Below are positions 3,619-6,713 of a stretch of DNA of 64,000 nt, one piece after another. Under the pieces are notes generated by a model, which made no database searches, was not told the DNA's origin, and worked only from the letters and a program-made list of their open reading frames with translations. The stretch is from Ammonifex degensii KC4 (GTDB lineage: Bacteria; Bacillota; Desulfotomaculia; Desulfotomaculales; Ammonificaceae), in contig NC_013385.1 of NCBI RefSeq assembly GCF_000024605.1, forward strand, positions 310,001 to 374,000, in the 5' to 3' direction. Numbering within the stretch: position 1 is the stretch's first letter; every line of letters begins with the position of its first letter. A program made the position numbers and the translations under genes.

Positions 3619-4366
3619 GCGCATCATACCCTGCCTGGACGTGGACAAGGGACGGGTGGTCAAAGGAGTAAAGTTCGTCTCTTTAAGGGATGCTGGGGAC
3701 CCGGTGGAACTGGCCGCGCTTTATGACCGGGAAGGGGCGGATGAGCTCGTTTTCTTGGACATAACCGCCTCGGCGGAAGACCGGGAGATAATGTGCGATG
3801 TGGTAAGGCGGGTAGCAGAGAAGGTCTTTATCCCCTTCACGGTAGGGGGAGGAATAAGGACGCTGGAGGACATAAGGAATATCTTGACCGCTGGGGCCGA
3901 TAAAGTGGCGATCAACACCGCCGCCGTAAAAAACCCGGAACTCATTTCCCAGGCGGCGGAGCAATTCGGCCGCCAGTGTGTGGTGGTGGCCATAGACGCG
4001 CGTCGGGTTGGCCCGGGGCGCTGGGAGGTTTACATCCACGGGGGCCGCACTCCAACCGGGCTTGACGCCGTGGCCTGGGCCCGCCGGGTGGTGGAGCTGG
4101 GGGCGGGAGAGATTCTGCTTACCAGCATGGACCGGGACGGGACCAAGGAGGGTTACGACCTGGAGCTCACGCGGGCGGTAGCAGAGGCGGTTCCTGTTCC
4201 CGTTATCGCCTCCGGAGGGGCGGGGAAGTTGGAGCACTTCGCAGAAGCTTTGACGGAGGGTAAAGCAGACGCCGTCCTGGCGGCTTCCCTTTTCCACTTC
4301 GGGGTGTATTCTATAAGACAGGTAAAGGAATACCTGGCCGCGCGTGGGATCACCGTGCGGCTTTGA
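3608..4366 (+). CDS. hisF: Imidazole glycerol phosphate synthase, cyclase subunit
   Basis: HisF is the synthase/cyclase partner of HisH and produces imidazole glycerol phosphate plus AICAR. The 252-residue TIM barrel shows the expected motifs: [16 protein letters not shown] at the N terminus with the catalytic aspartate, the FTVGGGIRT phosphate site near residue 78, the second aspartate near residue 130 (VAIDAR), [14 protein letters not shown] near 170, and ASGGAG near 200. The start ATG lies inside the end of hisA (11-bp overlap). Confidence 0.97.
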
Positions 4367-4379
4367 GGAGGCGCGGAAA

Positions 4380-5108
4380 GTGGCTTTCAACTTGGACCGG
4401 TTCAAGTTCGACGCTCAGGGCCTCATACCGGCCATCATCCAGGATAGCAGGACGAACGAAGTCCTGATGCTGGCCTATATGAACAAGGAGGCGCTGGCCA
4501 AGACCCTGACTTCCGGGCAGACCTGGTTTTACAGCCGCAGCCGCCAGCGCCTTTGGCACAAGGGGGAGACTTCCGGCAACATCCAGGAAGTAGACGAGGT
4601 TTACTTCGACTGCGACGCCGACGCCCTGCTCATAAAGGTGCGGCAGCACGGCGCAGCCTGCCACGAAGGCTACAAGAGCTGCTTCCACTACCGCATCGAG
4701 CCTGACGGCCGGGTGGCCTTGGTAGGGCAACCGGCTTTCGACCCCGCCGATGTCTACGGCGACCGGCGCCCGCCGGACCAGCTTCCTCCCAAGAAGGAGC
4801 CAGAGGAACGGCCGGTGTGCATATGTAGCAGCAGTATCTTAGAAGAGGTTTTCGACGTGGTGCTGGACCGGAAGCGTAACCGCCCGCCCGGGGCTTACAC
4901 CACCTACCTCTTCGACAAGGGGCTGGACACCATCCTGCGGAAGGTGAGCGAGGAGGCTATGGAGGTCATCCTGGCGGCCAAGAACCACCGTCATGAGGAA
5001 GTGGTGAAAGAAGCGGCCGACCTTATCTACCATCTGCTGGTGCTGCTGGCGGCTGAGGGAGTAGGGATACACGAAGTCTTCGAGGAGTTGCGCGAGCGGC
5101 GCAAGTAA
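4380..5108 (+). CDS. hisIE: Bifunctional PR-AMP cyclohydrolase / PR-ATP pyrophosphatase
   Basis: This fused enzyme carries out steps two and three of histidine synthesis. The N-terminal HisI domain (about residues 1-115) shows the zinc- and magnesium-binding segments with DCDADALL and HGAACHEGYKSCF. The C-terminal HisE domain (about residues 145-240) shows TTYLFDKGLDTILRKVSEEA followed by the acidic EAADLIYHLLVLL segment. The GTG start at 4380 is preferred over an in-frame GTG at 4344 because GAGGAG lies 7-11 bases upstream and the protein then begins at the usual N terminus. A linker of about 30 residues rich in Pro and Glu joins the domains. It is the last his gene. Confidence 0.95.
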   Translation: MAFNLDRFKFDAQGLIPAIIQDSRTNEVLMLAYMNKEALAKTLTSGQTWFYSRSRQRLWHKGETSGNIQEVDEVYFDCDADALLIKVRQHGAACHEGYKSCFHYRIEPDGRVALVGQPAFDPADVYGDRRPPDQLPPKKEPEERPVCICSSSILEEVFDVVLDRKRNRPPGAYTTYLFDKGLDTILRKVSEEAMEVILAAKNHRHEEVVKEAADLIYHLLVLLAAEGVGIHEVFEELRERRK

Positions 5109-5119
5109 GAGGTGGGGGA

Positions 5120-5566
5120 ATGAAGGCCTGGCTGGTGGGGACGCTTACCTGTGAGGACCTCCTGGCCGCCTACCAGATCGTAAGACGGCGGGGCTTAGCG
5201 GCCTTCGGTACTGGGGATAGAGAAGTGCTGCTACGCCTGCTGGACCGGGGTGCCGAGGAGGTTACCATCCACCTCTGTACTCCCACCTGAGCTCTGCCCC
5301 ACGTGGCGGTAGCCACGGGAAGGGTGGCCAAGATATGGGTGGAAGTGCCGGAGACCTCCAGCCTGGAAGAAGTGAAGCAGGAATTTGCCCGCTTTTTCGG
5401 CCATCGGTGGGAGGACGTGGTGGTGGGCAAGGAGCGGGAAAAACTCTTCCCCTTCTGGCAGGCTTATATAGGGGTGACTGATCTCCGGCCCTGCCCACAG
5501 AAAACGGTGACGCAGGTGCGCCAGGAAGCAGGAGAAATTCCGGTCTATGAGATCTTGCTCGGTTAA
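5120..5566 (+). CDS. Candidate selenoprotein of unknown function (in-frame TGA at 5288-5290)
   Basis: I do not recognise the family. From the ATG at 5120, which has a strong AGAGGTGGGG ribosome site, the frame reads 56 codons to a TGA at 5288-5290 and then continues open in the same frame for another 91 codons to a TAA at 5566. The residues before the TGA end in HLCTPT and those after begin ALPHVAVATG, so the TGA follows a cysteine by four codons. A 6-bp stem (CGTGGC/GCCACG) with a GGTA loop starts 11 bases after the TGA and fits the bacterial SECIS pattern. The full product would be about 148 residues, soluble, with no signal peptide. The gene lies 11 bp after hisIE and overlaps the next gene by 20 bp. 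Alternatives are a single-base nonsense mutation (for example from GGA or TGG) or a sequencing error. Confidence 0.55.
5297..5323 (+). promoter_or_regulatory. SECIS-like hairpin downstream of an in-frame TGA
   Basis: A perfect 6-bp stem, 5302-5307 with 5312-5317, closes a GGTA tetraloop at 5308-5311. There are 17 bases between the TGA (5288-5290) and the loop. Published bacterial SECIS rules ask for a loop 16-37 bases after the UGA with a G in its first two positions; both hold here. Short C-runs before and G-runs after the stem could extend it. Such a hairpin can also arise by chance in GC-rich coding DNA. Confidence 0.45.
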
Positions 5567-6713
5567 GAAGGACGGAAGATTTCGCATACTGCACGTCATA
5601 AGGCCGGCAGCTGGCGGCATGAAGCGCCATCTCATGGAGCTTCTACGCCATACCGACTACTCCCTTTTTGCCCCCGCCGTGGCCGGGCCGCCGGGAGAGT
5701 TGCTAAACGAGGTAGCCTCCCTGGGGATTCCCACTTACCCTCTGGCCCTCAAGGGGGAACTGGCCCCCTGGGAGGATGTGAGGGCCGTTTTTTCCCTCCT
5801 TTCCCTGCTGCGCCGGGAAAATTTTCCACTTGTCCACTTGCACGGCTTCAAAGCAGGACTGGTAGGGAGGCTGGCGGGCCGACTTTTGCGGCCGTCCCCT
5901 TTGATCGTCCTGACGGTGCACAACTCTCTTTTCTTCGGCGAGGGTTCGAGGAAGCAGAAGTTTTTGGCCCGCATAGAGGCTTTTTTGGGCCGCCGGACCT
6001 TTAAAATCATTGCCGTCTCGCAGGCCCTGCGGGCGGAGCTCTTGACCAAGTTTCGCCTCCCCCCCGATAAAGTGGTGGTGATACCCAACGGCATCGACCT
6101 CACCCCCTTCACCCTAGGGGTTCTTTCCCCTACCGTCCACCGGGAACTTCCCTTACCTACTGGAGTTCGCCTTTTAGGGACGGTGGCCCGGCTGGTCCCT
6201 CAGAAGGGGCTCTTCTGCCTCCTGGAAGCCCTGGCCCTTTTGCCGGCCGAGCTCCGGCCGGGGTGGCTCATCGTGGGAGACGGGCCACTGCGCCAGGAAC
6301 TGGAGGATAAAGCACGCGCCCTGGGTCTTTCCCACCTGGTCTCTTTCGCCGGCTACCGGCCCCCGGAGGAAATCCCTTCTATCTTGAAGGTCATCGACAT
6401 TTTCGTTCTCCCCTCCCTTTCCGAGGGTCTCCCGCTAGCACTGCTGGAGGCCATGGCGGCGGGAAAGCCGGTGGTGGCCACGGCGGTGGGAGGAATACCG
6501 GAAGTGGTGCTGGAGGGCCGGACGGGATATCTCGTCCCGCCGGGAGACGCCCAGGCTTTGGCCCGGGCCCTGCTCTCTTTGCTGGAGTCGCCGGATAAAG
6601 CGCGGGAGATGGGGGAGGCGGGGAGGAAGTGGGTAGAGGAGCACTTTTCTTCGCGGCGCATGGCTCAGGAGGTAATGAAAATCTATCAAGAGGCTTTGGC
6701 TACTCGGGGATAG
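5547..6713 (+). CDS. GT4-family glycosyltransferase
   Basis: A 388-residue GT-B fold glycosyltransferase, probably transferring a sugar from a nucleotide donor to a cell-envelope acceptor; substrate unknown. The N-terminal domain has the glycine-rich PAAGGMKRHLMELL segment. The linker shows IPNGIDLTPF near residue 180. The C-terminal donor domain shows GTVARLVPQKGL, LIVGDGPLRQEL, and the acidic EGLPLALLEAMAAGKPVVA block near 295 followed by GGIPEVV, all typical of family GT4. The ATG lies inside the end of the preceding TGA-containing frame. The next gene follows after 12 bp, so the two may form an envelope-related pair. Confidence 0.9.
   Translation: MRSCSVKKDGRFRILHVIRPAAGGMKRHLMELLRHTDYSLFAPAVAGPPGELLNEVASLGIPTYPLALKGELAPWEDVRAVFSLLSLLRRENFPLVHLHGFKAGLVGRLAGRLLRPSPLIVLTVHNSLFFGEGSRKQKFLARIEAFLGRRTFKIIAVSQALRAELLTKFRLPPDKVVVIPNGIDLTPFTLGVLSPTVHRELPLPTGVRLLGTVARLVPQKGLFCLLEALALLPAELRPGWLIVGDGPLRQELEDKARALGLSHLVSFAGYRPPEEIPSILKVIDIFVLPSLSEGLPLALLEAMAAGKPVVATAVGGIPEVVLEGRTGYLVPPGDAQALARALLSLLESPDKAREMGEAGRKWVEEHFSSRRMAQEVMKIYQEALATRG

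Follow-up and report, generated by a model that had tools for sequence, protein, structure and literature searches.

A probable new selenoprotein family with a predicted PUA-like fold in sulfate- and sulfite-reducing lineages

A 148-codon reading frame in the genome of Ammonifex degensii KC4, split by a single in-frame TGA, very probably encodes a member of a genuine new selenoprotein family, as judged from comparative sequence evidence. The product is predicted to form a single PUA-like domain, and the family is apparently undescribed in the literature. Positions are those of the window, that is, the whole stretch of 64,000 nucleotides that was analysed. An earlier note on this DNA had proposed a possible undescribed selenoprotein with a CTPTU motif and a SECIS-like hairpin; its selenoprotein claim is now strongly supported by a conserved TGA, a covarying hairpin, and the presence of the Sec machinery, while the redox-type pairing that it saw in the CTPTU motif is not.

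Results

The gene and constraint before and after the TGA

The frame is as the earlier note had described it, open apart from one TGA: the ATG at 5120 is followed by 56 codons, the TGA, 91 further codons, and a TAA at 5564-5566. The read-through product reads MKAWLVG...LCTPT-TGA-ALPHVAVATG...ILLG-TAA, and the sequence AGGTGGGG precedes the ATG. In the sister species (locus L002), hisIE, the selenoprotein gene, and the glycosyltransferase-like ORF stand in identical order. The features are collected in Table 1.

Table 1. Features of the selenoprotein locus in the window
Feature	Position	Strand	Basis
hisIE, upstream neighbour, 11 bp before the selenoprotein gene	4344..5108	+	ORF list; his genes identified by reading the sequence
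Probable ribosome-binding site, AGGTGGGG	5109..5116	+	Read off the sequence; inference
Selenoprotein gene, 148 aa, Sec as residue 57	5120..5566	+	One-TGA frame, TGA-bearing homologues, synonymous/nonsynonymous pattern, AlphaFold models
Sec UGA codon	5288..5290	+	TGA at the aligned site in all intact members examined except two paralogues
SECIS hairpin, stem 5302-5307/5312-5317 (6 bp), loop GGTA 5308-5311, G-U at 5309-5310	5302..5317	+	bSECIS limits; subfamily pairing
Glycosyltransferase-like ORF, downstream, overlapping the 3' end of the selenoprotein gene	5547..6713	+	ORF list; identified by reading the sequence

Comparison of the gene with that of the sister species gave differences of 4/4/11 by codon position upstream of the TGA and 5/5/25 downstream, so that third positions account for most of them on either side. 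The downstream half differs by 21 synonymous and 11 nonsynonymous codons, and mean pairwise identity over 325 pairs of family members is 0.38 both upstream and downstream of the TGA. Constraint at the protein level is thus equal on the two sides. These figures bear on what the earlier note held to be the main alternative, namely that the TGA is a point mutation; a sequencing error or an ordinary stop, leaving a pseudogene or two genes, belongs to the same reading. A single sequence is unable to exclude a point mutation, but the identical TGA stands in tens of independent genomes and the half behind it is constrained, so that we reject this alternative as extremely improbable.

The Sec codon across homologues

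Among 60 relatives, a search that allowed read-through returned 28 copies, 26 of them with exactly one TGA, and in the translated and aligned copies the TGA falls in a single column. With a profile search of 113 genomes of the class, 48 full-length copies were recovered from 46 genomes. Exactly one in-frame TGA is present in 46 of the 48, and every carrier genome of the class has at least one TGA-bearing copy. The two TGA-less copies, L006:1498-1947 and L027:1501-1962 (reverse strand), have Ala (L006, genome G005) and Ile (L027, genome G002) at the site, and both are second copies beside a TGA copy. Because they branch separately in a FastTree tree, L006 joining the window's clade and L027 standing next to L005, they suggest two independent losses of Sec after duplication, neither of them to Cys.

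The same site was also examined in an open-codon scan of 257 billion bases from 84,980 species. Its DNA pattern derived from [YF]xx[EQ]xG-TGN-xxx-R...AVG, with TGN at the codon in question to admit Cys, Sec, and Trp alike. The scan gave 35 loci, of which 34 are family members; all 34 have TGA, and none has Cys (TGY) or Trp (TGG) at the Sec site. The sole TGT match (L118) lies in a frame that is not family-like. Another scan, directed at the Cys form VY[FL]YE[TP]GC, yielded no relative. Cys homologues, which are usual for selenoproteins without being obligatory, were thus seen at the Sec site in none of the family members. The alignment of homologues that the earlier note had suggested for this position accordingly returned TGA in nearly all class copies and throughout the wide scan, with neither Gly nor Trp found, and on comparative grounds the family appears to keep Sec nearly always, replacement by Cys never having been seen. 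A decayed family fragment, with extra stops and the CDU motif kept, was observed in genome G016 (L146, G016:C252:4799-4942) about 3 kb from an intact copy.

The SECIS hairpin

The hairpin in the window (CGTGGC, loop GGTA, GCCACG) lies 17 nt after the UGA and has a stem energy of -10.1 kcal/mol. It falls within every bSECIS limit quoted in PMC13188914: a loop of 3-9 nt, a stem of 4-16 bp, a G in the first two loop positions, a spacing of 16-37 nt, and an energy of <= -7.5 kcal/mol. Taken alone, the fold beats shuffled sequences by a small margin (z -1.68); the hairpin and the TGA together exceed chance because homologues share them. In the 46 canonical members, a stem at 21-27/31-37 (counting the U of UGA as 1) encloses a GUN loop, with pairs such as GUUGCC/GGCAAC, GCAGCC/GGCUGC, CUGGCC/GGCCAG, and AACUGCC/GGCAGUU. 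Across these members 96.0% of the stem cells are paired, against 90.2% in shuffled data; 18 cells are changed on both sides of the stem, against a shuffled mean of 3.9; and the covariation score is 0.270 against 0.150, a value that none of 500 shuffles reached. Controls with the stem slid along the sequence scored far lower. The hairpin that the earlier note had placed at the right distance for a bacterial SECIS is therefore borne out by both the published limits and the covariation in homologues.

The window's own subfamily (L001-L005) has its hairpin at 15-20/25-30, closer to the UGA than the canonical form by exactly two codons (6 nt), with the loop G-U at 22-23 rather than 28-29. Within one and the same family, then, the recoding signal has changed register. 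All 30 of the 30 stem cells in the five subfamily members are paired, and one pair switches from G-C to C-G through two synonymous changes. Over the whole family, a qualifying stem-loop of at least 5 bp at a spacing of 17 or 23-24 is present in all but one of 51 members, and 34 of the 51 satisfy the strict energy limit with the minimal stem as well.

The Sec machinery

The search for selA, selB, selC, and selD that the earlier note had recommended found all four in the genome. Adjacent selA and selB genes form an apparent operon (L035:6091-7479 and L035:7470-9383; selA identified by reading, selB over cut-off), a tRNA-Sec with anticodon tca lies at L036:1501-1597, and selD, outside the window (L144, G000:C1:301304-302227), has an in-frame TGA of its own (SSGUAAKIG). 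Of the 60 relatives, 58 have selB over cut-off, and the sole carrier that lacks it has a genome 57% complete. Among 14 distant carrier genomes selB is over cut-off in 12; the match in one of the remaining two is a contig-edge fragment and that in the other is EF-Tu-like.

A column that holds only TGA is by itself compatible with any UGA-decoding scheme, including insertion of another amino acid or SelB-independent read-through, for example as Trp. Such schemes are most improbable here, since TGG and TGY are absent from the site in the open-codon scan, several members use TGA as their terminal stop, the hairpin covaries, and the genome has a full Sec machinery. Decoding of the UGA as Trp was rejected. 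The comparative evidence points strongly to decoding as Sec, with UGA 5288 read by SelB and Sec-tRNA(UCA) under the direction of the hairpin at 5302-5317.

Carriers, dsrA, and gene context

The carriers are mostly Desulfotomaculum-like Firmicutes, including Desulforamulus, Desulfoscipio, Desulfotruncus, Desulfallas, and Desulfovirgula. Copies in deltaproteobacterial and Nitrospirota MAGs form one nested clade in the FastTree tree, which fits a single transfer. A sample of 398 genomes of the phylum outside the class yielded no further match. One copy (L122), from a MAG labelled Armatimonadetes, branches with Desulfovirgula; the MAG is probably mislabelled or a mixed bin.

Within the class, 45 of the 46 carriers have dsrA, as do 30 of the 67 non-carriers (Fisher p 5e-10, uncorrected for phylogeny). 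The sole carrier without dsrA is an 80% complete genome, and the single carrier in family f15 is one of only two genomes there with dsrA. This comparative association may come partly from shared ancestry. Possession of mnmH, encoding tRNA 2-selenouridine synthase, showed no association in the class (30 of 46 carriers and 39 of 67 others; Fisher p 0.56), and a link to that enzyme was rejected.

No conserved operon was found, and the neighbours, which vary among loci, give no substrate. The only widely repeated one is a CxxCxxCC (PF03692) protein, which adjoins the selenoprotein gene in 12 loci; in L078:8508-9335, for instance, it has 275 aa and lies directly beside the gene, and the 11 other loci are alike.

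Predicted fold

AlphaFold prediction with 31 family sequences gave a pLDDT of 93.6 for the read-through protein of the window and 92.0 for the homologue L120, with a pTM of 0.87. For both models the top structural matches in the PDB all belong to the PUA superfamily (ASCH, YTH, EVE, and YqfB), at modest strength (Z about 8 or less, Foldseek E about 0.003-0.01). On these models, the product in all likelihood has a single-domain fold of the PUA-like superfamily, resembling ASCH, EVE, and YTH. The models place Sec57 in the loop that follows strand 47-54 and joins strand 3 to strand 4. Sequence comparison with the PDB returned nothing relevant. No member scored above the cut-off of the Pfam EVE model (PF01878), one reaching E 0.17, and hhalign against EVE gave E 0.03 and a score of 18.2, which the best few of 59 shuffled-column decoys matched; by profile-profile comparison the similarity to EVE stays at chance level.

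Discussion

What the selenocysteine does is a matter on which three readings are close in likelihood. We tentatively place first a Sec-dependent PUA-fold protein that acts on or binds a nucleotide or modified base. The loop that would hold Sec lies, in the predicted model, in the region that in ASCH and EVE borders a cleft for nucleic acid or a flipped base. There the selenolate of these sulfite-reducing anaerobes might serve as a nucleophile or as a redox centre, its target being a nucleotide, a modified base, or a similar small ligand.

A serious rival, and one that seems possible to much the same degree, is an ordinary redox selenoprotein that forms a selenenylsulfide or reduces peroxides or thiols, the PUA-like fold being a scaffold with no nucleic-acid function. 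Many selenoproteins are redox enzymes (PMC13188914), a CxxCxxCC (PF03692) protein adjoins the gene in 12 loci, and in the window's subfamily a Cys precedes Sec by four residues. This Cys was the basis of the redox-type arrangement proposed in the earlier note. It occurs only in the window's own subfamily, and the canonical members, which read YETGU in most cases and otherwise YEPGU or YQSGU, all lack it. The chemistry of the family therefore does not hinge on the CTPTU Cys, and a Cys/Sec redox pair was rejected as the family mechanism. A redox role is further disfavored by the want of any conserved Cys partner across the family and of any thioredoxin-like fold among the structural matches.

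The second serious rival, which we regard as somewhat unlikely, has Sec binding a metal or a sulfur or selenium species, as a sensor, carrier, or chaperone for dissimilatory sulfite reduction. It would account for the near-universal dsrA of the class carriers and for the adjacent PF03692 protein, described as 'zinc- or iron-chelating', but the alignment shows no clustered, conserved metal ligands. In addition, since 30 genomes with dsrA are without the selenoprotein gene, sulfite reduction does not need it.

The earlier claim that the family is undescribed is supported within the sources that were searched. None of the models in Pfam and NCBIfam (June 2026) gives a meaningful E-value for any member, no recognisable equivalent emerged by HMM or motif among the 119 selenoprotein families catalogued in 2026 (PMC13188914), PDB sequences are equally silent, and in the open-licence literature no relevant paper joins selenoproteins with PUA, EVE, or ASCH. 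The family would add to the catalogued selenoproteins a fold not found among them, and its genes are presumably annotated as truncated or overlooked in many genomes of sulfate reducers. The usual searches for selenoproteins lean on Cys homologues, as is stated for deep-Sep (PMC12013277), and a family without detectable Cys homologues exposes the blind spot of such searches. The loss of Sec only in extra copies, to Ala or Ile and not to Cys, also offers a clean test of the ability of selenium against that of sulfur. PUA-like domains are known to read or act on nucleic-acid bases. It is conceivable, at somewhat less than an even chance, that the family is a Sec-dependent PUA-like member of sulfite-reducing anaerobes that keeps Sec almost invariably, has no Cys form, and directs selenium chemistry at nucleotides or modified bases; methods based on Cys homology would then miss it.

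With the 119 catalogued bacterial families (PMC13188914) the present one shares its decoding by UGA, bSECIS, and SelA/B/C/D. It stands apart in that the searches turned up no Cys form, although Cys homologues are said to exist for almost all selenoproteins (PMC12013277). Among the structural relatives, the YTH domains, readers of m6A, are the second large group of matches (Z about 6-7), mostly at 6-10% identity. The EVE proteins (2eve, 2g2x, THYN1, and VcaM4I) have an order of strands and helices resembling that of the predicted model, and the EVE domain of VcaM4I flips a modified cytosine into a pocket (PMC7897488). The FYHSSC of 2g2x and 2eve could align with FYETGU, which, if the register holds, would place an EVE Cys where the family has Sec; in other EVE members this position is Ser or Lys. 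The best structural matches are to ASCH proteins (ZmASCH, PDB 5gus/5guq, and the E. coli ac4C amidohydrolase YqfB; Z 8.1 and 7.8, 115 residues), from which the family differs by 12-14% identity, the lack of a Pfam match, and its Sec. In ZmASCH, Tyr47, Thr49, Arg50, Lys53, and Ser128 are located in the RNA cleft (PMC5615036), and the Tyr of strand 3 and the Sec loop of the new family may correspond to residues of that cleft.
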